Shown here in pieces: positions 20,689 to 42,167 of a stretch of 47,347 bases of DNA. The DNA comes from Candidatus Magasanikbacteria bacterium CG10_big_fil_rev_8_21_14_0_10_47_10. GTDB lineage: Bacteria > Patescibacteriota > Patescibacteriia > Magasanikbacterales > UBA922. Every line of letters begins with the position of its first letter. Position 1 is the first letter of the stretch. The position numbers and the translations under genes were made by a program. The notes under the pieces were generated by a model. That model was not told the DNA's origin and did not search any database. It saw nothing but the letters and a program-made list of their open reading frames with translations. The DNA is taken from contig PFCB01000030.1 in NCBI GenBank assembly GCA_002773135.1, positions 41,362 to 88,708 on the forward strand, in the 5' to 3' direction.

Positions 20689-23577
20689 TCACTGTTTGCA
20701 TTTCTCCACGATTTGAATGGATATGTTTATCAACAGGAATAAGAACTGCCTTGCTCCAATCTCTCGTGCGCATTGTTTTGAAAAATCAATCATGGCGTCA
20801 TAGACTTTCTCGGCATTGACCTCCCGCAAAATAGTAAGATTCGGGTTAATACCAGGCAATGACAAGTATCTTTCTCCATTATCGGACACTATTTCAAAAT
20901 GCATTCCGCCCCTAGCAATGCCATCTTCTCCAAACATCACCACGTTTGAAAAGTCTTCTTTATTCCACAGTTGTTGATCAACTGCGACACAAACTCCCAT
21001 GTTCAGTCCGACGACAGAATGCACACGTTCCTTTGTAATCCGAAATTTCACCACCAGTTCTTCTCCACCTTCTGCTTCTTCGACGAATTTCCACTTCTCC
21101 AACTCACGCTGCATGGCAGGACCGTCTGCCCCCATAATCTTTTGTGAGATGACTGAGGACAATTTACCGGCATGTGTCCGCTGCGCGTTTGCTGCGTCAA
21201 GCTTGGCATTCACAATATCTGCGATCTTTTCCACCAATTCCGCCCCATTTTCAATATCCTCGGTGTATTCCCACATCTTAAATACTGTATCCGTATCGCA
21301 CACAACCCCGAATCGTTGAAATATATCCTTCACTCGCTGTGTCTTTTCTTCCTGGCCCATGTTACTTTTCATGACCCCAATAATCGAACGAACCGCCGTT
21401 TTTTTGGCTTTTGGACTTATGTCTGTCTTCAAGGCATCTTGAATTTGTTTATTGAAACCGTCTGGATCAATTGTACTATAGGCAGTCAAAGCTGCGTCTG
21501 CAATGTCCCGCAACCCGTCTTTTGACCACTCAAAAAGGGCAACCGCTTCCTCTCTTTCTGAGGCGGCTGGGATAAGCTTCATCCCCCCTCGCGCCAAGTG
21601 AAGCGCATAGCCAAAACGAAGGGCCTCATCTTGAAGTGCTGCATCTTTTTTTACCAATATTTCAAGCAGTTTTCTTCCAAACTCAACCACTTGGGCTGAA
21701 CCGACATCAATGACATTCTGGTTTGCATTTCCCTCTCCATCACCATCACCAACGATTTTCTTTTGATTGACCTCGCGCACGACATCTGCCATCAGTTCCC
21801 ATGGCTTATCAGAAAATTTCTCTCCTTCGTTAATGTCCCATTTCCCCAAGGCAAACCGTGCTTCCTTCCCCTGGAACGATTCCCATTCAAGTGGCACATC
21901 ATCCTGTCTTCCTTCTCTTGTCTGAATCAGCCCGCGATATTCATGGCGAGAGACCCCAACCGCAGGAGGAAAGACATGCGTGACAAACCCAATACCTTCT
22001 TCCGTAAGAAATTCATTATCCCACTCGCCTCCTTCAATGGTGTGGATTTTTTCGCCCACAGCGGCAATCATTTCTTGTGCAACGGCTTCTGGCGAATCAC
22101 CGGCCTCGACGCGATGTGAAAACGTTTGGAGCAGACTTAGGACCCATGGAATCTTGTTGCGTACAAAATCGATTATGTATGGCCGTTCGCTAAGGGGTAG
22201 TGTTGACCCCTTGAGTTCTCCCCCCTCCCTTCCAAAACTCGCATCCAGATAAAACGCAAAAAAATCGTTAAACTTTGCGCCGGTTTCAACCATCAGCTGG
22301 CGAAAAATCTTCGCTGATGCCTCGTCAGGACAAATAATGTTCATAAGTTCATTTTCGCCCTGATCAAACTGATCAACACGATCCAGAAGTTGATCCATTA
22401 CTAGTTTTGCAATGGCAGGCTGCGTCTCCAAGATTCCTTTGCACAAAATGTTTACGCGGGCATCGCACGACAATTCGAAATTCCTAATGGAAAACCCATC
22501 TACCCGATCACAAAAGATCTTCAATATAGACAGCGTACTTTCTACTTCTTTTGCTGGAAGCCTTTGCAAAAGGTCGGGCAGCTTGCTGGCAATAAAATCT
22601 TGCGCATCAGGATGATACAATATTGCTCTGTGTTTCAATGTTGAAAGCAACCACTCTCTGTCTTCTGATTCAATCTCCTCATACCCACTAAAACCATCTG
22701 TAAGATTGCTTGCGGTTGCTTCAAAATGTGCTTTATAGTCTTCAACGTCTAGTTCGCCAAACTCAAATGCCCTCAATTGGGGAATACTCAACCTATACAT
22801 AAGCCGATCTTTACCATATTCATTCCCTCGAGAAATTTTTTGCCTAATTTCATCAGTTGAAAAATACTGTAGGACATTTTTATATTCGCCACCCATTACC
22901 TCATATGAAAAAAAATCTGGATTTCCATCATATACATCTCTGATGAGTTCATTCCACTCAGCGTCTGTGAATACCCCCTCAAAGGCTTCTCTTTTCCCCG
23001 TCAAAGACGTAACCAACAAGCTCATCTCACTGCCATAAATATTCATCATAGCAACATTGCCTGGGGGGGGAATCTCTTTACTGCTTAGCTGGTCAATAAG
23101 GATCTTCTTTTTTTCTTTCGAGTCATACAAAGACCATGGAAAATTTTCAAAATGCGCATGCCTGCCAGGAGCAAACCAGTATTCCAATACCAACCCCTTA
23201 TCGCATCGTTCCAGCACAGATTTGGGGACACGCAGAATATCGAAGTCACGCATTAAAAAAAATGCTTTTTGGACCCCTACATCTGCCTGAATCCCTAGCG
23301 GCAAAAGGCCAAAAAGTTGCGACATCCCCCGTTCATGTTGAAACTTGTCTACAACTTGTTCAATAAATTTTGGATCTGCCCAGTATTGCGAATCAATAGA
23401 AGATACAATCTGCTCCCAATTTGGATATCCTCCGGCATCTCTCAACTGCGCAAAAAGACTTTCCAGTTGCTTTAGCGCAGCAGCGGTATCACGTTCTTCT
23501 TCTTGCATTTCTTGCAGCCCCTCAGAAATCATCGCTCCCTCAGATAGAGAGGATTGCTTCATGCCTTTTCTTTCCAT
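20689..23577 (-). CDS. Large hypothetical protein (962 aa), probably frameshifted near its C-terminus
   Basis: Long ORF without recognised motifs; plausible continuation in ORF 20585-20773. Confidence 0.65.
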   Translation of the reverse strand: MERKGMKQSSLSEGAMISEGLQEMQEEERDTAAALKQLESLFAQLRDAGGYPNWEQIVSSIDSQYWADPKFIEQVVDKFQHERGMSQLFGLLPLGIQADVGVQKAFFLMRDFDILRVPKSVLERCDKGLVLEYWFAPGRHAHFENFPWSLYDSKEKKKILIDQLSSKEIPPPGNVAMMNIYGSEMSLLVTSLTGKREAFEGVFTDAEWNELIRDVYDGNPDFFSYEVMGGEYKNVLQYFSTDEIRQKISRGNEYGKDRLMYRLSIPQLRAFEFGELDVEDYKAHFEATASNLTDGFSGYEEIESEDREWLLSTLKHRAILYHPDAQDFIASKLPDLLQRLPAKEVESTLSILKIFCDRVDGFSIRNFELSCDARVNILCKGILETQPAIAKLVMDQLLDRVDQFDQGENELMNIICPDEASAKIFRQLMVETGAKFNDFFAFYLDASFGREGGELKGSTLPLSERPYIIDFVRNKIPWVLSLLQTFSHRVEAGDSPEAVAQEMIAAVGEKIHTIEGGEWDNEFLTEEGIGFVTHVFPPAVGVSRHEYRGLIQTREGRQDDVPLEWESFQGKEARFALGKWDINEGEKFSDKPWELMADVVREVNQKKIVGDGDGEGNANQNVIDVGSAQVVEFGRKLLEILVKKDAALQDEALRFGYALHLARGGMKLIPAASEREEAVALFEWSKDGLRDIADAALTAYSTIDPDGFNKQIQDALKTDISPKAKKTAVRSIIGVMKSNMGQEEKTQRVKDIFQRFGVVCDTDTVFKMWEYTEDIENGAELVEKIADIVNAKLDAANAQRTHAGKLSSVISQKIMGADGPAMQRELEKWKFVEEAEGGEELVVKFRITKERVHSVVGLNMGVCVAVDQQLWNKEDFSNVVMFGEDGIARGGMHFEIVSDNGERYLSLPGINPNLTILREVNAEKVYDAMIDFSKQCAREIGARQFLFLLINISIQIVEKCKQ

Positions 23578-26942: not shown

Positions 26943-28985
26943 TTATGTAAGTGATTTAGTTCCCTTTTTTTCTTTCATACCCGAAAGTGGTAACTCCACA
27001 AAAAATGTTGTCCCCTCATTTTCTACGGATTCAAACCATACTGTCCCACCGACATGATCGACAATTGATTTGACTATGTAGAGGCCAAGGCCCGTTCCTT
27101 CGGTATCCATTTTCACTACATTATCAGCCCGAAACAGCTTTGTAAAGATTTGATGCTGCTGACTTTCCGGAATGCCGTATCCGGAATCAGCTACCGTGAT
27201 CCTCACAACGCCCCCTTGTTCTTTTTTTCCTCGCTGGACAACTCCTATTTCTATACTTCCACCCTGGGACGAATATTTGATGGCATTGCTCAACAAATTT
27301 TCAACCACGATTCTAAGCAACTTTCCATCAAGCATCATGGGTATACCCTTTTCATTACCATTCACGGTAAGTTGTATATCTTTTTTCTTAGCCAAGACTA
27401 AGACATCGGAGACAACATCATTGACGAACTTTGAGATATCCTGAAGCTGCGGTGACACCATAAATGTTCCCATTTCTATGCGTGACACGTTCAAAAGCGC
27501 ATTTACCAGATCCACCATCCTATGATTCCCCGCGTATATTTCATTGAGATACTTGCGCTGAGGCTCGCTGATCTGGCCGGCATCGCCGGACAAAAGCATT
27601 TCCGTATACCAGTTAATGGTTGAAAGTGGTGTCCTAAGTTGATGTGATGCCAGAGACACAAACTCTGTTTTTGATTTATCGACTTCATACTCTTTGGCTA
27701 TGTCACGGAAAACGACAACACCGCCAACCGCCCTATCCCCTATTTTCATGACTGAGGCGGTCACACTGACCGGAATGATCTGCCCTCCCTTGTGGGTATA
27801 AAAATACCGTGTCTGCAGCGTTTCATTATCTTTAAAAACCTTCAATGTCAAAAATTGTTCTTCAGCAATGGGAATACCGTTTTCATCCGTCGGCTTCATT
27901 ATATTTGGCCATAGCTGGCCTGTGACTTCATCCGGACGATATCCGGTGATAGTACACGCCGAATTGTTTACAAGGCGGACCCTTCTTTGCATGTCTGTCA
28001 CCACCAGCCCTTCACCCAGAGATGAAAGAATTGCTTCATCTTTCGCTTTCTCTCCTTCGATTACATTTTTTTCTTCATTAAGATCCTCCAATAAATTCAG
28101 CATGGCCAGCTTCGTATCTTGCAATTTTTGATTCTTATCCTTCAGCCTCGCCAACGCTTCTGTTGTTTGCTTTGTTTTGTAAGCGACCTCTTTGGTTAAC
28201 GATGCGTACGATTCTCGCAGTTTATTTCGCATCACATCAAATGTTTGAGAGAGCAGACCTATTTCATCCTTTGCATAGACAGGAATGACAATATCAAACT
28301 CACCATGCGACAGCTTATCCGCGACGTCTGTTAACTCATGAAGAGGGCGCATGATACTTCGGCGCAGGGCGATCATGACAAATGAAAGAAGAACTAAGAC
28401 AACAGCAACAATTCCGGCCAAAAATTCAAGACTGCTTGAAAAAATAAAATCAATGTCCCGCTGTCTTTTTTCAATATCAACATACGTTATTTCCAATATT
28501 CTGTTTACCGCGGGAACAATTTGGTCGTCAATCATCCGAATACGCGCAACCAAATCCGCCGCTTGTCCATCACTATCACCGCCCTCCACAGCGACAATAA
28601 TTTGACGGGACAAGCCACTTCTATCGGATAGTAGCCCCACATATGTTTCAATTTGTTGAACAATAAGATCATTCCCCATCATCGATACAAGAACATTTGT
28701 GTTCGCGCTCACGCGTAAATCAGTCTGAGTGGCCAAACGCGAGTATTGGGGATCACCGGTAAGAACAAACCGGTCAATCGCAGATAGTGATTCATGCACA
28801 TCACGCGAAATCTCCGCGGCTGTTGCTTGTTCAGTTACATGCATTTCAATCTCGGCATTGATTTTTTGGATATCTTTGATTGAAAAATACGCGTAGAGTC
28901 CGAACAAAAGGATAATAACACTGACCAAACCAAAACCAAAAATAAGCTGCGATCGAACCGATATATTGTGTAATCGCGTCATCAT
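26943..28985 (-). CDS. Sensor histidine kinase (sensor loop, HAMP, PAS, HisKA, HATPase_c)
   Basis: TM-flanked N-terminal domain, LTDVADKLSHGEFD HAMP, FVSLASHQLRTPLSTI H-box, NLLSNAIKYS, GTGLGLYIV. Confidence 0.93.
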   Translation of the reverse strand: MMTRLHNISVRSQLIFGFGLVSVIILLFGLYAYFSIKDIQKINAEIEMHVTEQATAAEISRDVHESLSAIDRFVLTGDPQYSRLATQTDLRVSANTNVLVSMMGNDLIVQQIETYVGLLSDRSGLSRQIIVAVEGGDSDGQAADLVARIRMIDDQIVPAVNRILEITYVDIEKRQRDIDFIFSSSLEFLAGIVAVVLVLLSFVMIALRRSIMRPLHELTDVADKLSHGEFDIVIPVYAKDEIGLLSQTFDVMRNKLRESYASLTKEVAYKTKQTTEALARLKDKNQKLQDTKLAMLNLLEDLNEEKNVIEGEKAKDEAILSSLGEGLVVTDMQRRVRLVNNSACTITGYRPDEVTGQLWPNIMKPTDENGIPIAEEQFLTLKVFKDNETLQTRYFYTHKGGQIIPVSVTASVMKIGDRAVGGVVVFRDIAKEYEVDKSKTEFVSLASHQLRTPLSTINWYTEMLLSGDAGQISEPQRKYLNEIYAGNHRMVDLVNALLNVSRIEMGTFMVSPQLQDISKFVNDVVSDVLVLAKKKDIQLTVNGNEKGIPMMLDGKLLRIVVENLLSNAIKYSSQGGSIEIGVVQRGKKEQGGVVRITVADSGYGIPESQQHQIFTKLFRADNVVKMDTEGTGLGLYIVKSIVDHVGGTVWFESVENEGTTFFVELPLSGMKEKKGTKSLT

Positions 28986-30880
28986 ATGTCAGACGATATG
29001 CCAAGCACATGGGCGGTATCCCAATTAAACACTTTTTTCACGCGCGCCGCGGTTTCTGTTTTTAACCAAGAAGGATGGCTCCCTCTTAAAATAAGAGCGG
29101 CCTTGTCACCGGCCAACGTGCCAACGTCAAAGGGATCATACCCCAACCCAACCAGTGCCCCGGCATCAACATCGTCCGGATTGCAGGCGATGGTCGGAAT
29201 CATTTCTTGTCGAGCCCATTCGATAATAAAATTTTTACCTTCTCTGCCAAACGATGTATCGCAGGAAAGGTAAAATACGTCCACGCCAGATCCATCTACC
29301 GTAATGTTTTCAATAAGCTGCGCGGTTTGAATTGCTGAAATATCCACCACGTCAAAACCTTTTTCTTTACTCAACTCAACCAGCTCCTTCAGCTGGAGAG
29401 ACACACCGGGGTCATTCTTTCCATGTATGTACCCTACGGTATGAAACCTTTTGCCCGTAGAAGATGAATTTTTAAACAGTGTCTCCAGCAAATAAAATTG
29501 ATCTTCCAACGGAACATAATCTCGGACACCCACCAGATTATTTTGAGAATGATCCAAAGAAGAAATCAAACCCAATTCAACGGGATACGTAACAGATGAA
29601 AAGACAACCGGAATATTGTCCGTGAGACCATGCGCCATGAGTGTCCCCTGTGTTGTAAGTGAATAAATAATATCCACTCGTTGATCTATGAATGCTTGAA
29701 TTGACCTCTCCTGCTCGGCAGGGTCTCCCATGGCATTGCGAAACACATAGTGAATCGTATCACCGTCTTTGTAGCCCGCGCGCGTCAGCGTATCCATAAA
29801 GCCCCGGATACTCTCTTCGTCATTTTTATTTTCATCCCAAAAAGATATGCCAACAACAACATCCGTTCCGTTTGGGCGCTTATATGAATATATCCGAACC
29901 AAAATAAATACAACAAACCCAAGAATGATCAACAAAGCGACCACTCCAAACACATTCCCATGCCGCGTGCGGCCTGATTGACTGCTTTCTACATGCGATG
30001 GTGCTACAGATGCGTCAGCGCTCTCCGGAGACTGCTTGTACAAGAAATAAATCCCGATCAACAGAAAGACAAACCCCAAAATAGCCATTGAGAGCGGAGC
30101 AACCGTGTGAACCAAAATGACCAATGCTTTTCTTTTTTTCGCATTCGTTACCTGTTTTTCAACACTCGCGTCCGTGTATGAATTACTGAATGAATTCCAA
30201 GGGGAAACCCGATCTCCGCTCGCACGATCATAGTAATATGCCGTGCTATGGTCAGCGAATTTCACCAGGTACCCGGTTATTGGTTCGACCCAAACCTCCA
30301 CATGCGGGTCCACTTCCACCCCGCGCTGTTCCGGAACACCGGGAAGATATTGCAACTCATTGCTCTGATCGATTCGGACATTCCTATAATCACTTTCGTA
30401 ACGAAAAACGCGCAAGCCAAACAACGATTCTTCTTTAAGAAAAATCATCCGTGCCGGCCCGTCATAATTCGTATGCCAATATGTGAATGTTTCTCCCTTT
30501 GATAACCCCCGAGGAGCAAATAAATACCCCTGCCGGTCTTTGTCTCCATACCCCGCCGTATGCGCTCCCGTCTTGGCGTTGACGCCGTATTCTCTTTCAA
30601 CGGAAAAAATAAAATCGTCCGTCAAATTTGTTACTGAAAAAGAATTATTGAGTGTATACGTATCACCGTCAATCGCTGTGACAGCATATCCATATTCTGA
30701 CTTCGATATTTGTGCCCCTACAAAATCTTGCGCGTCTTCATCATAAAAATTATCTAAAGAAAAAAGATCGGCTGAATATGAAAAATCGGCAGGCAATTTC
30801 GTTATTTCCGGTGCGATCAAAAATATCCATATGGGAATGAAACAAAAAAAGCTTGCTGCTAAAAAAAGATATTTCTTCAT
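28982..30880 (-). CDS. Fusion of DUF3068/PorA-like exodomain and ABC_sub_bind-type substrate-binding domain
   Basis: N-terminal TM plus beta-rich domain, second TM, then VVVGISFWDENKNDEESIRGFMDTLTRAGYKDG...VFSSVTYPVELGLISS. Confidence 0.7.
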   Translation of the reverse strand: MKKYLFLAASFFCFIPIWIFLIAPEITKLPADFSYSADLFSLDNFYDEDAQDFVGAQISKSEYGYAVTAIDGDTYTLNNSFSVTNLTDDFIFSVEREYGVNAKTGAHTAGYGDKDRQGYLFAPRGLSKGETFTYWHTNYDGPARMIFLKEESLFGLRVFRYESDYRNVRIDQSNELQYLPGVPEQRGVEVDPHVEVWVEPITGYLVKFADHSTAYYYDRASGDRVSPWNSFSNSYTDASVEKQVTNAKKRKALVILVHTVAPLSMAILGFVFLLIGIYFLYKQSPESADASVAPSHVESSQSGRTRHGNVFGVVALLIILGFVVFILVRIYSYKRPNGTDVVVGISFWDENKNDEESIRGFMDTLTRAGYKDGDTIHYVFRNAMGDPAEQERSIQAFIDQRVDIIYSLTTQGTLMAHGLTDNIPVVFSSVTYPVELGLISSLDHSQNNLVGVRDYVPLEDQFYLLETLFKNSSSTGKRFHTVGYIHGKNDPGVSLQLKELVELSKEKGFDVVDISAIQTAQLIENITVDGSGVDVFYLSCDTSFGREGKNFIIEWARQEMIPTIACNPDDVDAGALVGLGYDPFDVGTLAGDKAALILRGSHPSWLKTETAARVKKVFNWDTAHVLGISSDI

Positions 30881-31842
30881 ACGACGGACAGTTCATCGAC
30901 AGGGCGAGTACTCGGTGTAACCGCCTCCAACTGTCGAATTTTTTCCTTTAACGCGCGCATTTTCAGCTCTCGACCAATCATTAGGCTATTCATTTTTTCC
31001 AACTCTTCCGTCTGGCGGCGCAGTGTTTCTTCAGTGAATTGAGCATCCGTCACATCATGCACAATACCGTATAGTCGGATGGGTTTACCATTCTCATCCG
31101 CCTCCACCTGCGTGATGCAATGAATAATACAATTCCGTCTCTGAGCCGTCACCATTCTTTCAAAAGAATTAAAGCCTTCTTTTGTTTGTAACGAATGCTC
31201 TACAAGCTCAAACATTTTTTGTCGAGTATCCGGATGAAAATAATGAATCCACGCCTCCATGGATACATCTATCGAGTCCGGCTCCAATTCGTAAATTTGG
31301 TACATTTCATCCGACCAATGAACAACATTCCGCTCAATATCCCATCCCCATGAACCGATACGAGCAACCTTCTGTGCTTCATCGAAGGCTCTCGTCTTAC
31401 TGATTAATTCTTGCTCCATTTCTTTTCTGTCCGTAATATCATGTCCTGTCACAATATACCCGTCAGGCACGCCCTGCGTATTGTGCGCGATGGTAGCCCG
31501 ACCCCAAATAAAAAGGTGCCCCCCATCCTTTCGAACAAACACCATCTCGCCGACATATCCTTGTTCAAAATCTTTTTCCAGTCGATCAAAAAGAAACGAT
31601 CGCGACTTTTCAAATTGCGATTTTGTCATCAGTGTTGGAACAATGGGTCTGCCAATAATCTGATCCACTTTCAGACCATGCATGTTCGCCCAAGCCAGGT
31701 TTACAAATCGTACTGTAAAATCTATGTTCAAAATCAAAATACAGGCAATAGTCGCTTGCAATGCCCGCTCCAAATGGTTTATTCTATCTTCAATCTCCGC
31801 GCAATTATGTGGCGGATTTTGTTTTTCACTCTCTGTCTGCAT
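30877..31842 (-). CDS. PAS-domain protein with two PAS domains and no kinase domain
   Basis: LINIDFTVRFVNLAWANMHGL...GYIVTGHDITDRKEMEQEL and second PAS VVHWSDEMYQIYELEP; start at MQTESEK. Confidence 0.85.
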   Translation of the reverse strand: MQTESEKQNPPHNCAEIEDRINHLERALQATIACILILNIDFTVRFVNLAWANMHGLKVDQIIGRPIVPTLMTKSQFEKSRSFLFDRLEKDFEQGYVGEMVFVRKDGGHLFIWGRATIAHNTQGVPDGYIVTGHDITDRKEMEQELISKTRAFDEAQKVARIGSWGWDIERNVVHWSDEMYQIYELEPDSIDVSMEAWIHYFHPDTRQKMFELVEHSLQTKEGFNSFERMVTAQRRNCIIHCITQVEADENGKPIRLYGIVHDVTDAQFTEETLRRQTEELEKMNSLMIGRELKMRALKEKIRQLEAVTPSTRPVDELSVV

Positions 31843-31872
31843 GCTGTAAAGTATAGCATGTTCAAGTAAAAC

Positions 31873-31900
31873 AAAAAACTGCACCGTGTGCAGTTTTTTT
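31873..31900. terminator. Bidirectional intrinsic terminator
   Basis: AAAAAACTGCAC-cgt-GTGCAGTTTTTTT. Confidence 0.8.
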
Positions 31901-31922: not shown

Positions 31923-32429
31923 CTACCGCGTAACTCTCACCTGTGCGGCGTTCTCAGACTCGCAGGCTTGAATCACAATCGCTCCTGTTGAACTTGATAT
32001 GAGTGTATACCCTGTCGTTCCCGCAGACCATGTTACGGCGCCGGTAGGACTGACCGGTACTTCGGCCAAGTACCCTTCGGCAACAAGTCCTTGCAGATTC
32101 ACACAATTTCCATCCGCGGTAACCTGTGCGTCACACGACGCGTTGTCGTCATCGCACCCCGCGACATCACTTCCAATCATGTATATTTCTCCCGCAGTCA
32201 AAGCGGTAATAGCTGACAAATATGTCCCGCCATTATCAATCTGATCCACTTTCACGGCACTCAAAACAGCGGTGACATCCGTCCACCGCGCCGCGTCTCG
32301 CGCATCGCGAAAACGAGTAAGGGGGTCAAGGGCGACAAAAGCGACTGCCGCCAAAATCGCGATAATGGCAATGACGATAAGCAACTCAATAAGCGTAAAT
32401 CCTCCTCGTTTATGTTTTGTATCAAACAT
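31923..32429 (-). CDS. Type IV pilin
   Basis: GGFTLIELLIVIAIIAILAAVAFVALDP class III signal peptide. Confidence 0.93.
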   Translation of the reverse strand: MFDTKHKRGGFTLIELLIVIAIIAILAAVAFVALDPLTRFRDARDAARWTDVTAVLSAVKVDQIDNGGTYLSAITALTAGEIYMIGSDVAGCDDDNASCDAQVTADGNCVNLQGLVAEGYLAEVPVSPTGAVTWSAGTTGYTLISSSTGAIVIQACESENAAQVRVTR

Positions 32430-32503: not shown

Positions 32504-33976
32504 TTATTGGAGACGATCAACAACAACGACCTGCAATGATGTTTGTTCAGCATTATATGATGTCTGATCTTCGGTTGTAGTTGGCAGCTCTTCACCGGGA
32601 ATATCAAGTACCGGCGGCAAAATAGGGCTTATCGGAGTCACCGGTGGCTGCTCAATATTTGGAATCCTCTCCAAAAGCTGTTGAATCTGCGCGGCCTGTT
32701 CATCGCGGCCCTGCTGGCGCTGCGCATCCCTGTATGTGTATACGGAATCCATAAAAAAGGCTCCCAAAATAAATACAAGGAGAAGCGCAACCAACTCAAT
32801 ACCAAACTTGCTTTTATTCTTTCCATACGACGTATGCTTCATAAGCGCGCTTTGCAGCTTTCCCTGTTTGCGCGGCGCCGATGCTGGCTGAGACGTTTTT
32901 AACGGCTGATACTGACCGCGTTGAATGGTACTGGTTTTTTTTGGTGCTTTGGGATCAAACGGGACGAGTCCATTCGCGTCGAGAAATTCTATATGAGGAT
33001 CACTGCCATTTGGCAAGGCCAAACCGACTGCCTCAATAAACACACTACCCACATCAGCGCCCGGCACGAGAGGCGACGCCCCTAATCGTACAGGGACTCC
33101 CACTGTTTGGGACAATACGTCCAAAAGGCCTTGCTGCGCGCTGCCTCCTCCAACCAACATCATATCGGCCACGGCAATATTTTGCCGCGCTGTGGTCTCT
33201 TTTAATATCCGTACCAATCGGTCACCTAAGGCGGCCGCGACTTGCGTCATAGTGGGACTGCCGGAAATTTGCATCTGCGCCTTTTGCTGCTCTGCCGCGG
33301 CCATGTCTATGCCCTGCTCCGCGGCAATGGCTCCGGTAAACGTCGAGCCGGCGATATGTATGGTCTGAGAGCGAACAATACCGGTTTTATCAAAAACACC
33401 AACATGGGTTGTCCGGCTTCCAATGTCAACCACTGCCACAGGATTTTTGGGCATCCCGGAAAAAAGTGCCCGGGCCGTTGCTATCTGTTCGCTATCAAAT
33501 CGGTTCACTTTTATCCCCTGCTCGCGAAAAAAAAGCTGCCACGCGGCAATATACTTTTTGCTTGTTGCCAATACCCGAACCCTGACCGAGCCGTTTGCGC
33601 CGGGATATGTCTGAAATGAAAAATGAATGTCCTTTTGAGGGAGAGGTAATATTTTGGGTAATTGTTTTCGCAAAATATCATTCAGCTGTTTTTTTTGCTC
33701 CTCCGGAATGGAAAAAATATGAATATACACGTGTGACTCGGGAATGCCAAACGCAATCCCCTGCGAACGAAGCGGTATGCCCGCCTGCTGGTAAACCGCG
33801 CTAAGAGCCTGCGCCAATTTTGCGGCATCGACAATTTCTCCACGCTCCACAATGCCGGGAGCAATGCCAACACGCCCTTTTGCTTTTACCGTAAAACCGC
33901 GCCCTTTTTTATCCAAAGAAACTAGCTCTATGGTGCTATCGGAAATATCGAGCCCTATGTTGGTGTGTTCCATCAT
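32504..33976 (-). CDS. pilM: PilM-like type IV pilus assembly protein with C-terminal TM segment
   Basis: NIGLDISDSTIELVSL, VVDIGSRTTHVGVFD, MLVGGGSAQQGLLDVLSQ; single TM near the C-terminus. Confidence 0.87.
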   Translation of the reverse strand: MMEHTNIGLDISDSTIELVSLDKKGRGFTVKAKGRVGIAPGIVERGEIVDAAKLAQALSAVYQQAGIPLRSQGIAFGIPESHVYIHIFSIPEEQKKQLNDILRKQLPKILPLPQKDIHFSFQTYPGANGSVRVRVLATSKKYIAAWQLFFREQGIKVNRFDSEQIATARALFSGMPKNPVAVVDIGSRTTHVGVFDKTGIVRSQTIHIAGSTFTGAIAAEQGIDMAAAEQQKAQMQISGSPTMTQVAAALGDRLVRILKETTARQNIAVADMMLVGGGSAQQGLLDVLSQTVGVPVRLGASPLVPGADVGSVFIEAVGLALPNGSDPHIEFLDANGLVPFDPKAPKKTSTIQRGQYQPLKTSQPASAPRKQGKLQSALMKHTSYGKNKSKFGIELVALLLVFILGAFFMDSVYTYRDAQRQQGRDEQAAQIQQLLERIPNIEQPPVTPISPILPPVLDIPGEELPTTTEDQTSYNAEQTSLQVVVVDRLQ

Positions 33977-33979
33977 ACC

Positions 33980-34360
33980 TTATAAGTATTCCCAATCGGA
34001 AGCCGTCACGGTCGTACCACTTATCGACGCATCCACCCGAAGCACCTGCCTGACATTGCTGAGCGTGCTTGTCACGTACAATGTTCTCAACGCGCCGTTT
34101 GACGCTATGGACAGTATACAGGATCCGTCCCCCAGACTCAAAGTATCACCCGTGTATGCGCCCTCAAAACGCAAACGACGCAATCCTTCATCAGCGCACC
34201 CATCGGCTATGGCACGCGCCTCATACTGCAAATCCTGTGTAAATCCAATATCCAAATCGCCAATGCTTAAAAACGCGGCGCTCATTGCCAGTATAAGTGT
34301 GGCCGTCCCCACGACAATAACCACGAGTAAAAGTGATAATCCCTGTTTGTTCATATTCAT
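33980..34360 (-). CDS. PilX-like pilus component
   Basis: NKQGLSLLLVVIVVGTATLILAMSAAF; AIADGCADEGLRRL. Confidence 0.7.
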   Translation of the reverse strand: MNMNKQGLSLLLVVIVVGTATLILAMSAAFLSIGDLDIGFTQDLQYEARAIADGCADEGLRRLRFEGAYTGDTLSLGDGSCILSIASNGALRTLYVTSTLSNVRQVLRVDASISGTTVTASDWEYL

Positions 34361-34866
34361 AGGCGTGTGCTGGCGGTGGACGTTACCGATGTTTGATAAA
34401 AAAATTCAATACCGGTTGAGCTGGCGTACATAACATCCGCAACCATCCGAATGCTATCGGCGCCCGATACAGGACTCAAATTTGTAAAAATAAATTTGGT
34501 GATTGACAAGTCACTGTCGGTCACCGGCACAGCGGGATTTCCGCCCTCACTCACCTGCAACCGACCGTTATCTCCGGTCAATGAAAAGATAGTTGGATCT
34601 TTTGATGCGTCAAGCATTTGAAGCGAAAGCACGCCGGGATCCGTATCAAACGTTGACGCGCCGGTATTAACTGCAGTCGCCTGCTTTACCGCGTCCGTGA
34701 TCGTCAACACCGCCAATCGCATTTGAGCATTTACACTCTGTATGGCATAACTCTTATTCCTGGCGGTTGAAATATGCAAGGTAAACGTGACAAGGGCCGT
34801 GGCCACAATACTAAAAATAGCAATGTAAATGATACTTTCAAAAAGTGTAAAACCGCTTTTGTTCAT
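34357..34866 (-). CDS. Type II/IV pseudopilin
   Basis: MNKSGFTLFESIIYIAIFSIVATALVTFTLHIS. Confidence 0.85.
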   Translation of the reverse strand: MNKSGFTLFESIIYIAIFSIVATALVTFTLHISTARNKSYAIQSVNAQMRLAVLTITDAVKQATAVNTGASTFDTDPGVLSLQMLDASKDPTIFSLTGDNGRLQVSEGGNPAVPVTDSDLSITKFIFTNLSPVSGADSIRMVADVMYASSTGIEFFYQTSVTSTASTRL

Positions 34867-34869
34867 ATG

Positions 34870-37800
34870 CTATCGGTAGTTAACCCGAATCTCAGAAAAT
34901 GTCGGCGTATTTGTCCCGTCGCCAATCAACTCCAATCTATATTGAGCCCACCGGTTGCCATTGAGCGAAGTGGACACAAGCGATCCGGTATTGTCGGTAA
35001 AATAGGTTGCCGCGCCACTCTCTCCATACCACGCCGTCCATGCACCCGGGCTTCCGCCACTATCAGGGGCTGTCCGCAACTGAATTTTTGCCTCACATGT
35101 TGGTGTACACGCGGGGATACTTTGATCCCATTCAACCAACTGTACAGGCGACGCGTCTGACATATCAAACGCAGAACCGATGACCCAACCGCTCAGTGCG
35201 TACCCTCCGCCTCCACCCGATTCCCCATAATCAACACGGACATTATCAAGTCGCACAAACTGCGTCCCATCGCTCTGCAAAAACGATTTCAATACTATTT
35301 TTCCACTGCTGGTGGAAAAATCCCCGATATTAGTATCGACAATTGCTGCTGTGTTGTAGTTACTCGCTCCGGCAGCAGCCCACGAACTTCCGTTCCAATA
35401 TTGCCACGTCGCCCCCTCATCATCGGAAAGTTGGTAATACACTTCCCCGCCATTTTTAATGGCTGTTTCAGTAAAACCTGTCCACTGTTCAGGACTTGCA
35501 AGCGACAGTGATGTAGAGGCTGTCACCGGTGGCACGTCGGTTGGATAGCTGCTTGACGATTCAAGCTCAATAGTGGTCACAAAACCGTCTGATCCGGTAC
35601 TTTGATACGCGATGGCATATGTATCCGCGGCAGCAAGCTCCACAATGCTGGGATAATAGGCATCTGCCGTATCAAACTCCAGTGTATCAAGTACCGCGGC
35701 GCCAATTTGCCCATTGGTGGCGATATCTATCATAGTGATGAATCCATCACCGGCAACACCGGAATACGCAATAAAATAATAATCTCCGGTCGCGTACAAC
35801 AAATCAGGATAACTGGCGTCATTGGTATCAAATTCAAACGTGTCCACGGTGCTACCACCGATATTACCGCTTGAGTCAATGGTCATTGTCGCGAGCCAGC
35901 CATCACCGTTCGCACCCTGATACGCGACAGCATAATAGTCCCCGGACACATGTTCCAGATCCGGCCGAAAGCCGTCACTTGGATCAAATTCAAAACTGTC
36001 GACAGTGCCGGCGCCAATATTCCCGCTTGAATCAATCGTCACTGTCGCCACCCAACCATCATTCCCAGGCCCTCTGTACGCGATCGCATAGTAATCACCG
36101 GACACATGAACCATGCTTGGTTCCCTACCATTATTGTTATCCCACTCGAGTGTATCCACCGTACCCGCACCAATATTGCCGCTTGAATCAATCGTCACTG
36201 TTGCAAGCCAGCCATCAGTCCCAGGACCCTGATATGCGATTGCATAGACATCACCACTGACGTGGACGACGCTGGGCACGTCACCGTTTCCAGTATCATA
36301 CTCCAAAGAGTCAACAACAGAATTCCCAATATTGCCGGATGAATCAATCGTCATAGTTGCAAGCCAGCCATCAGTCCCAGGACCGGCATACGCTATGCCA
36401 TAGACGTCCCCACTCACATGAAAAATATATGGTTCCCCACCTTGACTTGTGTCAAATTCAAGTGTATCGATGACACTGGCAACAATGGTACCGGCTATGT
36501 CAATATCAACGGTTGCAAGCCAGCCATCGCTTCCAGGTCCTTGGTACGCAATAGCGTAAATATCACCACTCACATGAATCATGTGCGTTTCCGCTCCGTT
36601 GCTCGTATCAAATTCAAATGAATCAATTACTGCGTCGGCAATGCCGGACAGTGAAGCAGCGCCCGCCTTAAGTTGCGCGTAGCCGCCCGTGACTTCAATT
36701 TTAGCTGAATCAAACTGATAGTCTCCGGAATTGGAAAACGTCCAATCGTATGACTGTTCACAACTAATGGTCACATTGTCCAGCTGTACAAACTGCGCAC
36801 TGTCGCTTTCCAAAAATGCTTTGAACATGATAGCCCCCGTACTTGTTGAAAATGTTTGAATATTAGTATTAATCACGCTACTGATATTGTAATCTGTGGC
36901 ACCCACCGCGCTGGCCCACGCGGCTCCGGTCCAATACTGCCATGTGGAGCCAGCGTCTTCTGACAGTTGGTAGTATATTTCCCCTCCATCTTTTGACGCG
37001 GTCTCGGCAAACGCGGACCATGTATCAATTGCCGGCACGCTAAAGGACGCGGTTGGATTGATTGAAGGAGTATCCGAAGGGTATGTTGATGCTGTTTCCA
37101 GATCAATAGTTATCACAAATCCATCCCCCGCAACCCCTTCATACGAAATGGCATAGATGTCACCGGCGACTATTTCTACCATGGTTGGATTCGTACCATC
37201 GGATGTATCGAACTCCAAGATATCAATGGCCGATGCCGCTATATTCCCGTCTGTTTGAATGTCAATCAGCTGGACAAATCCGTCACTCCCCGGCCCGTTG
37301 TACGCGACCAGATAGGCTGTCCCGGTAGCGTACAAGATACTCGGAGTAATTCCGCTACTGGTATCAAATTCCAAGCTATCTATGAGGCTATTTGTTATGT
37401 TGCCGGACGTATCAATCGTAACTGTCACCAGCCACCCATCCGCGCCCGGCCCGTCATAGGCTATGGCATACACGTCACCGCTCACGTGCTGCAACTCCGG
37501 CCGGTTCGCATCATTCGTATCAAATTCAAAGGTATCAATGGTTGACGCTGTGATAGCCCCCGATGCATTAATGGACACTGTTGCCAACCACCCGTCTCCC
37601 CCGGAGCCGTTGTAGGCAATGGCATATACATCACCGGATATATGAACAATATCCGGTCCCTGCCCGCTGTCTGTATCGTATTCAAAACTGTCAACGACGC
37701 TATTTGCGATATTACCGGCTGAATCAATATCCACGGTCGCCAGCCAGCCGTCTCCTGCCGGGCCCTGGTATACGATTGCATAAATATCGCCGGCAATGGC

Positions 37801-38907
37801 AATGACGTTCGGTGTTTCTCCATTGGATGTATCATACTCAAGGCTGTCAATAACAGAAGCTCCAATATTGCCTGACGAGTCAATGGTCATCGTCACCAGC
37901 CACCCGTCAACACCCGGACCGTTATACGCGATACCATACACGTCCCCGCTCACATGAAAAATATCAGGCGTATCTGCGTCGGTCGCGTCAAATTCAAGTG
38001 TATCAATCACACTGGCTGTAATCGTCCCCGCTGAATCGATATCAACCGTCGCAAGCCACCCATCTCCATTGTCACCTCTGTACGCTATAGCATAGATATC
38101 GCCGGACACATGAATAATATCAGGTTCGTGACCGTCAACCGTGTCAAATTCAAAACTGCTCAAGACAGCATCAGCAATACCGGACAGCGCTGGTGCACTT
38201 CCCTTCAGCTGCGCATTCCCCCCTGTCACTTCAATTTTCCCGCTGTCATACGAATACTGACCCGGTGTTGTAAATTCCCAAATATTTGTACCACACCCGC
38301 CCCCTGCAGAAGCCAGCGTTACCTCTCCGGCAACTGACACATTCACATTGCTATCATCACTATCATACTTTGTCGCGTCCGACCACAATGACTGACCAGC
38401 CCCTCCCACCCAATCAGTCTGCGTCCAATCGGAACTGTCCCAGTTACTGACATACGCCACTCGCTCCACTGTTGAAGTGACACCAGGTCTTGGCTGCCAC
38501 TCCACCAGAACGCTGGCAAGTTTCAAATGCTCATCTGTGTACGTTCCCGGACAGGTAACAATATCACTGCTTCCGTCTCTGCACACATCCTCAAAGGTAA
38601 TTGTCCGCACATAGTCACCAATAGTCTCTGTTGTATTTTCTCCATCAAAAATCCATTGTGCCCCACTCACTGACACGGAACTGGTTGAATATGTGAATTC
38701 GTTATATGCTCTGTCTCTGATGGATCGCACGGCTTCCAGTCCTTCCTCTGCCAGCGAGGTTGCCTGTACGTAGTGGGTGCTCTGAACATCCGCCCTTCCA
38801 TTTCCTGCAGACAAGCTTAAAATACTTGCCGCCAAAATAGCAAAAACGGCAATGCCCAACATTGCCTCCAAAAGTGATAGCCCTCTTTTATCTGTCGTAA
38901 TTCGCAT
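34870..38907 (-). CDS. Giant minor pilin fused to two 7-repeat propeller-like modules (1345 aa)
   Basis: N-terminal KRGLSLLEAMLGIAVFAILAASILSL prepilin motif; 7+7 tandem repeats of about 46-48 aa of the form VSGDxYAIAYxGPGxDGWLATVxIDSSGNI. Confidence 0.85.
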   Translation of the reverse strand: MRITTDKRGLSLLEAMLGIAVFAILAASILSLSAGNGRADVQSTHYVQATSLAEEGLEAVRSIRDRAYNEFTYSTSSVSVSGAQWIFDGENTTETIGDYVRTITFEDVCRDGSSDIVTCPGTYTDEHLKLASVLVEWQPRPGVTSTVERVAYVSNWDSSDWTQTDWVGGAGQSLWSDATKYDSDDSNVNVSVAGEVTLASAGGGCGTNIWEFTTPGQYSYDSGKIEVTGGNAQLKGSAPALSGIADAVLSSFEFDTVDGHEPDIIHVSGDIYAIAYRGDNGDGWLATVDIDSAGTITASVIDTLEFDATDADTPDIFHVSGDVYGIAYNGPGVDGWLVTMTIDSSGNIGASVIDSLEYDTSNGETPNVIAIAGDIYAIVYQGPAGDGWLATVDIDSAGNIANSVVDSFEYDTDSGQGPDIVHISGDVYAIAYNGSGGDGWLATVSINASGAITASTIDTFEFDTNDANRPELQHVSGDVYAIAYDGPGADGWLVTVTIDTSGNITNSLIDSLEFDTSSGITPSILYATGTAYLVAYNGPGSDGFVQLIDIQTDGNIAASAIDILEFDTSDGTNPTMVEIVAGDIYAISYEGVAGDGFVITIDLETASTYPSDTPSINPTASFSVPAIDTWSAFAETASKDGGEIYYQLSEDAGSTWQYWTGAAWASAVGATDYNISSVINTNIQTFSTSTGAIMFKAFLESDSAQFVQLDNVTISCEQSYDWTFSNSGDYQFDSAKIEVTGGYAQLKAGAASLSGIADAVIDSFEFDTSNGAETHMIHVSGDIYAIAYQGPGSDGWLATVDIDIAGTIVASVIDTLEFDTSQGGEPYIFHVSGDVYGIAYAGPGTDGWLATMTIDSSGNIGNSVVDSLEYDTGNGDVPSVVHVSGDVYAIAYQGPGTDGWLATVTIDSSGNIGAGTVDTLEWDNNNGREPSMVHVSGDYYAIAYRGPGNDGWVATVTIDSSGNIGAGTVDSFEFDPSDGFRPDLEHVSGDYYAVAYQGANGDGWLATMTIDSSGNIGGSTVDTFEFDTNDASYPDLLYATGDYYFIAYSGVAGDGFITMIDIATNGQIGAAVLDTLEFDTADAYYPSIVELAAADTYAIAYQSTGSDGFVTTIELESSSSYPTDVPPVTASTSLSLASPEQWTGFTETAIKNGGEVYYQLSDDEGATWQYWNGSSWAAAGASNYNTAAIVDTNIGDFSTSSGKIVLKSFLQSDGTQFVRLDNVRVDYGESGGGGGYALSGWVIGSAFDMSDASPVQLVEWDQSIPACTPTCEAKIQLRTAPDSGGSPGAWTAWYGESGAATYFTDNTGSLVSTSLNGNRWAQYRLELIGDGTNTPTFSEIRVNYR

Positions 38908-38910
38908 TGT

Positions 38911-39393
38911 TTACTGCAATAATATTTTCCCGCTTGCGAGAACGTGAATGGTTGACTGAATATTGAGTGTTGGATGTGTAATGACGATATCGCTTGTGAC
39001 GCTTGGCAACCCGGACCCTTCGCTAAAATGATAGTCTGTGGCATCCGGACTCAACTGGACCGCCTGGTACGTGACTACTCTGTCATATTGCGTTTCTCGC
39101 GCCGCATACGACCCGCCTTCATACAGCGTCACGCTATCGCTCTGCACATACACACCATGCGCGTCCAAGTTATACCGCGCGCTGGATCGTGTTTGCGCTG
39201 TCCGGAGTGCTTGCGCCACTTCTGCCGTCGCGTCACCAAGCTGTGCACGCGGCTGCAGCCGCGCAAAAATTGCCGCTCCGGCAGCGCTCATTATTGCGAT
39301 CATGGCAATAACAATAAGCAATTCAATTGTCGTGAGCCCGGATCGAGACGCATGCGTGCTATCTGTTTGCGCTAACGCTACCCGTAATTTCAT
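38911..39393 (-). CDS. GspH-like pseudopilin
   Basis: RSGLTTIELLIVIAMIAIMSAAGAAIFARLQPRAQLGDATAEVAQALRTAQTRS. Confidence 0.8.
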   Translation of the reverse strand: MKLRVALAQTDSTHASRSGLTTIELLIVIAMIAIMSAAGAAIFARLQPRAQLGDATAEVAQALRTAQTRSSARYNLDAHGVYVQSDSVTLYEGGSYAARETQYDRVVTYQAVQLSPDATDYHFSEGSGLPSVTSDIVITHPTLNIQSTIHVLASGKILLQ

Positions 39394-40462
39394 AAATTGG
39401 TGTAATAATGGCCAAACCAAGGGTGGTCACCACAACCCCTATCAAAAGGAGCAAAATAGGCTCAAGAGCCGTTGTCAGTGCGGTCGTTGAGGTATCAACT
39501 TCCTGTTCGTAAAAATCGGCCAAATACAGCAATGTTTCACTCAAATTGCCGGACTGCTCACCCACATTCACCATGTTAATAACGAGTTTGGGAAACAAAT
39601 GTTCAAATTGCTGCAAATTTTCAGCCATGCTTTTGCCACTTTGTATCTCAGACGCCACCTTTGCCAATGCGAGTCGATAATATCGGTTGGTAACGGTACC
39701 GCTGGTGATTTGTACCGCGTTATCAATATTCACACCACTGCCAAGCAGCGTCCCAAAGGTTAAACAAAAGCGAGCAAGATTTGAACTTTTTGAAATATGT
39801 TTCAACAGTGGAAACTTGAGCAATATTTTATGCGTGACCGGCTGTGAAAAAGTGGCTCTTGCCAACGCGACAACGCCCACCAAGATAGCCAACGAACCTG
39901 TTACAACAGCCAACCCATGCGCGCGCATCAAATCCGAAAACCACAGCACCATGCGAGTACTCAAAGGAAGCTCAATTCCTTTTAAACCCTTAAACAGCGG
40001 CGTAATTTGCGGTAAAATGTAATACGCCATGCCAAGCGCCAAAAAAAATGCGGCAATCAGCACAATGGCCGGATACGTCATGGCGCTCTTCACGCGTCGC
40101 ACCAATTGTTCTTCACGTTTGAGCTGATCCGCAATGTTTGTCAAATTCCCGGCGAGTGTTCCGGACGCTTCACCCGCTCGAACCACATCAGTAAATAAGC
40201 CGGGAAACACTTTGGGATATTTTGCCATTGCGTCCGCCAGCGATGATCCTTCTTCAATAGACCCGACAAGCTTTCCAATGACTTTTTTTAACTTCCCCTT
40301 TGCCGAGTCGGCCGCTATTTCAAGCGATTCGTGCACTGTCAGGCCGGCCTCGATCATAACGGACAAATGCTTGGCAAATACAGCCATGTCAACCACGGAC
40401 ACGCGGCCAAAACTGATTTCTTTTTTCCAAAACGGCAATTTTTTTGTTGTTTTTTCAGGCAT
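39359..40462 (-). CDS. pilC: Type IV pilus inner-membrane platform protein
   Basis: DMAVFAKHLSVMIEAGLTVHESLEI, VVRAGEASGTLAGNLTNIADQL, VGEQSGNLSETLLYLADFYEQEVD; start at MPEKTTKK. Confidence 0.92.
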   Translation of the reverse strand: MPEKTTKKLPFWKKEISFGRVSVVDMAVFAKHLSVMIEAGLTVHESLEIAADSAKGKLKKVIGKLVGSIEEGSSLADAMAKYPKVFPGLFTDVVRAGEASGTLAGNLTNIADQLKREEQLVRRVKSAMTYPAIVLIAAFFLALGMAYYILPQITPLFKGLKGIELPLSTRMVLWFSDLMRAHGLAVVTGSLAILVGVVALARATFSQPVTHKILLKFPLLKHISKSSNLARFCLTFGTLLGSGVNIDNAVQITSGTVTNRYYRLALAKVASEIQSGKSMAENLQQFEHLFPKLVINMVNVGEQSGNLSETLLYLADFYEQEVDTSTTALTTALEPILLLLIGVVVTTLGLAIITPIYEITGSVSANR

Positions 40463-40469
40463 ATTTTTA

Positions 40470-42167
40470 TTACATGGCAACGCGCAGTACTTCTTCAAGG
40501 GTCGTCACCCCATCGAGTACTTTGCGAATGCCATCTTCAAGCATGGTTGTCATACCTTTTTGTCTTGCCGCTGCTTTAATTGAGTCGGAGTCTGAATGAT
40601 TGACCACCAGCTGTCGCATTTGTTCATCCATGATCATGACTTCAAAAATACCGATCCGTCCGGCGTATCCCGTATCGCCACATACTTTGCAGCCATTCCC
40701 CTTATATAGCCGAAGATTATCAAGGGAAACCCCAATACGACTCAAAAACGCTTCACGCTCGCCATTATCCTGCAATATTTTCTTTTCCTGGTCAGTAATG
40801 ACATGACTTGCTTTGCACGACGCGCAAATCACCCGAACCAAGCGCTGCGCAATAATAATATTAACGGTTGACGCGACTAAAAATGGCTCAACCTGCATGT
40901 CGAGAAGCCGAGGCAGCGATGTTGGCGCGTCGTTTGTGTGCAATGTTGACAACACCAAGTGTCCGGTCAATGCCGAGTTAACACCAATTCCCGCTGTTTC
41001 TTCATCTCTGATTTCTCCCACCATGATGATATCCGGATCCTGCCGGACTATCGAGCGAAGCCCCTGCGCAAAAGTAAGGTTTGTTTTTGTATTCACCTGA
41101 ATCTGCGTCACCCCCGATATATCGTATTCAATAGGGTCTTCAATAGTGGCAATATTCACATCACGCTTGTTGAGCAACTTCATCACCGCATATAAGGTCG
41201 TTGTTTTCCCGCTTCCGGTCGGACCGGTCACCAATATCATGCCGTGAGGGTTCTTTATATTTTCTTTTACTTTTTCCAAATCATGGCCAACAAGACCCAA
41301 ATTCGTAAGAGTAAATTGACGGCCATGCGACGACAACAAACGCATCACGACATTTTCGCCATACTTGGTCGGAACCACAGAGACACGAACATCGATCGCT
41401 TCGCCCGCGTCACTGACAAAACGAAATTTTCCATCCTGCGCGGCACGGTGCTCATCCGTACGCATACGGGACAATACTTTAATGCGTGTCATAACACGCG
41501 AATGCATGTCCAAATCCATTTCTAGTCGATCACTCAATACGCCGTCAACACGAAACCGCACCAATGATTTTCGTTCATACGGTTCGATGTGAATATCAGA
41601 CGTTCCATTTCTTTCCGCGTTGTTCAAAATAAGGTTTGCCACATGCGCGGTCAAACCTTCCACCGCATCGTCTGCCTCAATATCCTCAGTCGTATCGTCG
41701 GAGATAGTGTCAAGCAAACTTTCGTACGCAGCTTTTATATCTTTTTTGTACCGTTTCAACGCGTACGCAATGTCCTGAACAAGCGTGATAAAGACCTGAA
41801 TAGATGTATCAAAACGTTTCTCCAGTACATCAATAATCTCGGTCTTTGTTGGGTCAACAATGGCTACCTGCACTGTCCCGTTCGCCTTGCCAAATGCCAC
41901 AATCTGTTGACTCACGGCCATGCTTTCAGGTATTTGAAAAAAAATATCATCATCTACTTTTTGTTTTTGCAGGTCAACATATTGATAACCAAAATACTCA
42001 CCTACAGCCTGACCCAAAAGCGCTTTTGTTAAAACATTATTATTAATAAGGGATTGCTGCAATGGAACATCATCTTGGGTTGCCAACTGCGCGGACTGAA
42101 GCATATCTTCTTGGGAAAGATACGCCTTTTCAATAAGTATCTTTTGTAACAACGCGTCATCAAGCAT
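40470..42167 (-). CDS. pilB: Type IV pilus assembly ATPase
   Basis: Walker A GPTGSGKTTTLYA, IATIEDPIEYDI, Walker B IIMVGEIRDEETA, CxxC zinc motif CKVCGDTGYAGRIG. Confidence 0.95.
   Translation of the reverse strand: MLDDALLQKILIEKAYLSQEDMLQSAQLATQDDVPLQQSLINNNVLTKALLGQAVGEYFGYQYVDLQKQKVDDDIFFQIPESMAVSQQIVAFGKANGTVQVAIVDPTKTEIIDVLEKRFDTSIQVFITLVQDIAYALKRYKKDIKAAYESLLDTISDDTTEDIEADDAVEGLTAHVANLILNNAERNGTSDIHIEPYERKSLVRFRVDGVLSDRLEMDLDMHSRVMTRIKVLSRMRTDEHRAAQDGKFRFVSDAGEAIDVRVSVVPTKYGENVVMRLLSSHGRQFTLTNLGLVGHDLEKVKENIKNPHGMILVTGPTGSGKTTTLYAVMKLLNKRDVNIATIEDPIEYDISGVTQIQVNTKTNLTFAQGLRSIVRQDPDIIMVGEIRDEETAGIGVNSALTGHLVLSTLHTNDAPTSLPRLLDMQVEPFLVASTVNIIIAQRLVRVICASCKASHVITDQEKKILQDNGEREAFLSRIGVSLDNLRLYKGNGCKVCGDTGYAGRIGIFEVMIMDEQMRQLVVNHSDSDSIKAAARQKGMTTMLEDGIRKVLDGVTTLEEVLRVAM

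Follow-up and report, generated by a model that had tools for sequence, protein, structure and literature searches.

Within a window of 47,347 nucleotides (the whole stretch of DNA analysed here), we identified a giant pilin gene whose product is predicted to carry two seven-bladed beta-propellers, each inserted into a beta-sandwich behind a class III prepilin N-terminus. The gene sits in a slot of a pilus operon in which related genera keep the ends of the protein and vary the payload between them. We consider it likely that the product is a tip-located modular minor pilin presenting two propellers with different ligands. How ultrasmall (Patescibacteria-like) bacteria recognize their partner cells is little understood, and pili are the leading candidates; with its conserved pilin slot and genus-varying payload, this locus is a clear candidate for specificity. 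As far as our searches go, the presence of this repeat family in pilins, its doubling, its nesting and the variable payload of the slot are new.

A giant gene with a prepilin N-terminus in a conserved pilus operon

The open reading frame that the initial annotation had placed at 34870-38907 is found at those coordinates on the minus strand. The gene is single-copy in the host genome (1.04 Mb, 98.9% complete), and it lies among the following genes:

40470..42167, minus strand: PilB/GspE-type assembly ATPase (profile matches)
39359..40498, minus strand: PilC/GspF-type platform protein (profile matches)
38911..39420, minus strand: GspH-like minor prepilin (profile match; conserved beside the giant gene)
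34870..38907, minus strand: giant modular pilin gene (1345-aa open reading frame)
34357..34866, minus strand: GspI/GspJ/ComGF-like minor prepilin (profile matches; conserved order)
33980..34360, minus strand: pilin-like protein without Glu+5, in the GspK/PilX position (sequence; conserved order)
32504..33976, minus strand: PilM (profile matches)
31923..32429, minus strand: probable major pilin (Pfam N_methyl above cut-off)

This order, that is PilB, PilC, GspH-like, giant pilin, GspJ-like, GspK/PilX-like, PilM and major pilin, is kept in most related genomes, and most relatives close the operon with a homologue 48-69% identical to the probable major pilin.

The N-terminus of the giant pilin, MRITTDKRG/LSLLEAMLGIAVFAILAASILSL (the slash marks the predicted cut), combines Gly-1, Glu+5 and a hydrophobic stretch of ~21 residues, and fits a class III prepilin with the cut context KRG/LSLLEAMLGIAVFAILAAS. 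The Pfam N_methyl model matches residues 7-29 with 18.4 bits, slightly under its 21.2-bit cut-off, which several same-slot orthologues exceed. A helix is predicted at residues 8-62 of the AlphaFold2 model, and the same genome encodes a prepilin peptidase at another location. The class III prepilin N-terminus read from the letters by the initial annotation thus agrees with the sequence, the conserved pilus operon and the peptidase gene. Judged by its motif, its extra modules, its assembly-gene neighbourhood and the peptidase in the genome, the giant protein fits a modular pilin, with modules behind the pilin module that have no specific tie to pilus biology, namely the two predicted seven-bladed propellers. 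Its parts are as follows:

38293..38907, minus strand: pilin module, residues 1-205 (kept in orthologues)
38821..38907, minus strand: class III prepilin leader and hydrophobic N-terminal helix, residues 1-29, predicted cut after G9 (sequence; N_methyl; modelled helix)
38173..38295, minus strand: beta-sandwich 1, N-terminal strands, ~residues 205-245 (model; contiguous with the C-terminal part in propeller-free relatives)
37066..38157, minus strand: predicted propeller 1, seven 52-aa blades, residues 251-614 (repeats, model, fold matches)
36748..37065, minus strand: beta-sandwich 1, C-terminal part, ~residues 615-720 (model, comparison with orthologues)
36637..36747, minus strand: beta-sandwich 2, N-terminal strands, ~residues 721-757 (model; 60% identity of halves)
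35530..36621, minus strand: predicted propeller 2, seven 52-aa blades, residues 763-1126 (repeats, model, fold matches)
35212..35529, minus strand: beta-sandwich 2, C-terminal part, ~residues 1127-1232 (model, comparison with orthologues)
34873..35178, minus strand: C-terminal beta module, residues 1244-1345 (kept at orthologue ends)

Two blocks of seven repeats are predicted to fold as beta-propellers

Two blocks of seven repeats had been read from the sequence at the outset, and counting confirms them: the giant pilin holds 14 repeats arranged 7+7, every one of exactly 52 aa. Repeats start at residues 251, 303, 355, 407, 459, 511 and 563 in block 1 (residues 251-614) and at 763, 815, 867, 919, 971, 1023 and 1075 in block 2 (residues 763-1126). 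Aligned over 510 columns, the halves of the protein (residues 205-721 and 717-1233) show 60% identity; this identity and the exact period exclude a chance repeat.

AlphaFold2 modelled the giant pilin as two separate pieces, with related loci aligned for each. The piece comprising residues 722-1345 reached a mean pLDDT of 87.6 and that comprising residues 1-721 a mean of 80.4, with blades mostly at 90-97 in both and much of the pilin part and sandwich lower in the latter. Because the first 120 residues include stretches of pLDDT 45-78 and the pTM is 0.61-0.63, the pilin region and the placement of domains relative to each other are of low confidence. Each block was modelled as a seven-bladed, four-stranded beta-propeller. 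In both models blade 7 contributes just three strands, the outer one being missing. Closure of the ring by a strand from before blade 1 is usual in propellers, and going by strand order, the strand at residues 250-255 preceding blade 1 could supply the fourth strand of blade 7. Blade position 34 is repeatedly occupied by an aromatic residue (W/F/Y).

Searching the PDB with Foldseek placed the seven-bladed lectins PLL/PHL of Photorhabdus at the top for both models (E ~1e-11), and the VIA fold comparison gave Z ~30-32 over ~300-320 residues to CylK, PLL4 and YncE. The Photorhabdus proteins share with the modelled propellers seven W-type, four-stranded blades (PMC6943638); they differ in being soluble lectins, and their sequence identity to the giant pilin propellers is 8-15%. 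Searched by sequence, the PDB gave no convincing match for the giant pilin, and GenBank phages and plasmids gave no match. In Pfam, no repeat model scored above its cut-off over the blades; the one match there at E<0.001 was DUF3471, under its cut-off, and the PHROG matches of the blades were all of unknown function; on these searches a known repeat family was rejected. The initial annotation had suggested two seven-bladed propellers, with structure prediction and a homologue search as checks. Prediction returned a propeller for both blocks, and the presence of two seven-bladed beta-propellers in the giant pilin is supported by these models of both halves, by the fold matches and by the seven blades seen across the family.

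Each propeller is nested within a beta-sandwich

A jelly-roll-like module had been proposed between and after the two blocks. The module exists, but its placement differs from that proposal: the first strands of each sandwich precede the propeller block and the remaining ones follow it, and therefore each propeller is inserted in a sandwich. Relatives point the same way, as the beta-sandwich is contiguous in those that are free of propellers. The protein of locus L031 contains both an empty sandwich unit (residues 243-358) and a filled one (residues 401-866), with the propeller in the same loop, and in loci L045 and L072 it is a LamG-type domain that the propeller splits. We therefore view the propeller as an insert into beta-sandwich loops, and such nesting as a route to adding binding heads to pili.

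An old duplication followed by divergence that is greatest in one set of loops

At the DNA level the repeat is mostly eroded (1.9 copies with 76% matches in Tandem Repeats Finder), and the two halves have diverged at synonymous sites almost to saturation (pS 0.72). For these reasons the repeat is neither a recent duplication nor an assembly artefact. Between the duplicated propellers, dN is 0.31 versus a dS of ~2.4; these values mark the two propellers as products of an old duplication that purifying selection has maintained. They also pair with each other in a tree of 14 propellers (support 99/96), and therefore the unit was duplicated within the lineage.

Differences between propellers 1 and 2 are unevenly distributed, affecting 59% of residues in the D-A and B-C loops as opposed to 37% in the A-B and C-D loops and 31% in strands. 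With loop boundaries taken from DSSP, on which the significance depends, and with a face assignment that presumes canonical propeller topology, this bias has p=0.013 against the loops of the other face and p=1e-4 against the strands. A wider loop choice, made after viewing the data, gave p ~1e-11, and the DSSP-based figures are preferred. In canonical topology the D-A and B-C loops lie on one face of a propeller; the pair has therefore kept its scaffold and altered one face. Conserved blade positions recur in every blade, and they do so in the phage proteins described below as well.

The same slot carries different payloads in related genera

In ~15 related genera, the same slot holds a pilin with conserved ends and a differing payload. 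The slot proteins range from ~670 to 2060 aa and share the pilin module and the C-terminal module around different middles, which consist of propeller-free sandwiches, of one propeller, or of LVIVD plus LamG plus propeller. The last type is seen in the L045 orthologue, from another genus, in which residues 170-1420 hold LVIVD repeats, LamG domains and a propeller nested in LamG.

At locus L040, the GspH-like gene is separated from the modular pilin by an additional prepilin of 553 aa (frame L040_-_0_1178) with a major-pilin-like N-terminus.

The propeller family in other pilins, a surface protein and viral contigs

The homologue search found relatives, and matches to a blade HMM fit seven blades in all 13 further blocks (13/13), two of them loosely. 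Three of these blocks belong to related pilins (L031, L032, whose sixth blade is partly masked, and L045), one to a pilin-like protein of Desulfobacteraceae (L064), one to a surface protein (L072) and eight to viral contigs (L073-L080). Among the latter, the L077 and L078 proteins are identical, the blade count of L079 is inferred from spacing, and several blades of L080 are low-scoring. More divergent versions, with blades that are not countable, are found in L033 and L039. The family is rare, occurring in 4 of 379 genomes of the phylum at E<=1e-8 and in 1 of 395 genomes of the phylum of the Desulfobacteraceae genome at E<=1e-10. These occurrences point to a seven-bladed repeat family that lacks an above-cut-off Pfam model and extends across pilins, a surface protein and phage contigs. 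The propellers of the phage contigs are ~26-42% identical to those of the window. Firm support in the tree of 14 propellers is limited to the window pair and one phage pair, and horizontal exchange is not resolved.

Several of these loci show features of their own. The L072 protein (L072:3-3026), from a distant family of the same phylum, is a non-pilin surface protein that carries its propeller in LamG and ends in a C-terminal membrane anchor and a basic tail. In the IMG/VR contig L073, a major head protein gene lies near the propeller gene, and the propeller protein of the IMG/VR contig L074 weakly matches a minor tail protein family. The propeller in the IMG/VR contigs L073-L080 may be part of phage particles.

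Proposed function and alternative explanations

We infer the processing, tip location, binding, ligand type and biological partner of the giant pilin as follows. Prepilin peptidase would cut the N-terminal pilin module, which would then join the operon's minor pilins of H-, J- and K/X-like type in a type IV pilus tip complex. The ~1140 residues past the pilin module are predicted to contain one unit twice over, each time a beta-sandwich that holds a seven-bladed propeller in a loop, and then the C-terminal beta module; the doubling of the unit goes back to the old internal duplication. Conserved strands and turns hold the scaffold, and because the one-face loops of each propeller have diverged, ligands probably differ between the two propellers and would most likely be glycans or proteins of another cell. 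Across related genera, both ends of the protein are retained and its middle is exchanged.

Tip position, adhesin role and host-cell attachment are plausible by analogy with known systems. PilY1/PilC of diderm type IV pili is a tip adhesin with a beta-propeller that is presented by a minor pilin complex. The giant pilin would likewise present propellers at the pilus tip, with the difference that PilY1/PilC is not itself a pilin. No match to T4P_PilY1 (PF05567) was found in the giant pilin, ruling out PilY1 identity; a PilY1 search across the genome gave no hit, and neither did its control. Modular pilins are an established class, with 264 architectures in a survey of InterPro (PMC8179133, PMC9934059). 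Among them are PilB (vWA) and PilC (lectin) of Streptococcus sanguinis, in which a pilin module bears adhesive modules; models place both at the tip, and they bind proteins or glycans (PMC8179133, PMC9934059). Like the giant pilin, they join a small pilin module to large grafted modules and are thought to be tip-located; unlike it, they are much smaller and use vWA or concanavalin-type lectin modules with no propeller. A further parallel is PilX2 of Nanosynbacter lyticus TM7x (Saccharibacteria), also a minor pilin of an ultrasmall bacterium with a seven-bladed beta-propeller, in its case of RCC1 type, whose deletion lowers host binding from ~10.6% to 4.6% (PMC12206443). PilX2 has one C-terminal RCC1-repeat propeller and no predicted PilD signal (PMC12206443), whereas the giant pilin has two predicted propellers of another repeat family, nested in sandwiches, and a recognisable class III prepilin N-terminus. 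A propeller of the PilX2 type is ruled out, as the Pfam RCC1 model found no match in the giant pilin at E<=1.

A propeller fold by itself is no proof of function, and enzymes and protein scaffolds use propellers too. It is conceivable, though unlikely, that the propellers of the giant pilin are structural or enzymatic and not adhesive, forming a glycan-degrading or matrix-anchoring module or a mere spacer stalk. Enzymes are common among propellers of such fold (CylK, sialidases and glycoside hydrolases are among the fold matches), and sialidase-type enzymes also pair propellers with beta-sandwich or lectin domains. No catalytic family was matched by sequence, however, and the recurrence of conserved positions in all blades, phage proteins included, is what scaffold residues would show, rather than one catalytic centre.

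PilM and a separate N_methyl major pilin are encoded in the operon, and a payload that varies by genus fits varied external targets better than a constant cargo. Both observations argue against a role in a pseudopilus, where the protein would belong to a secretion or DNA-uptake system and its bulk would capture cargo or DNA and not cells. We judge this improbable, even though type IV pili have PilB/PilC/H/J/X in common with type II secretion and competence, Gsp and Com families account for several of the matches, and Thermus has in ComZ a modular pilin with a proposed DNA-binding role (discussed in PMC8179133). That the protein is a phage receptor or decoy, with the kinship of pilin and phage propellers reflecting an interplay of pilus and phage, is very improbable: homologous seven-bladed propellers do exist in phage contigs, one near a major head protein gene, but they are just ~26-42% identical to those of the window, the tree resolves no exchange, and no phage of the lineage is known here.

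The tip-located modular minor pilin with two different propellers may be part of a wider pattern, which we put forward tentatively. The slot between the H- and J-like genes could be a dedicated pilus-tip cassette site with fixed ends, where genera swap one binding payload for another (one or two nested propellers, LamG, LVIVD, Cys-rich inserts). The propeller, in turn, could represent an unnamed binding-domain family that phage structural proteins have as well. If this were true, pili and phages would share the same receptor-binding module.

Other genes of the window

Two further open reading frames of the window, at 20689-23577 (962 aa) and 17873-19915 (680 aa), have no Pfam match at E<=1e-5. 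The gene at 28982-30880 encodes a PorA-like N-terminal region fused to an ABC_sub_bind domain, and it adjoins genes for a histidine kinase (26943-28985) and a PAS-like protein (30877-31884), with which it possibly makes up a sensor system.
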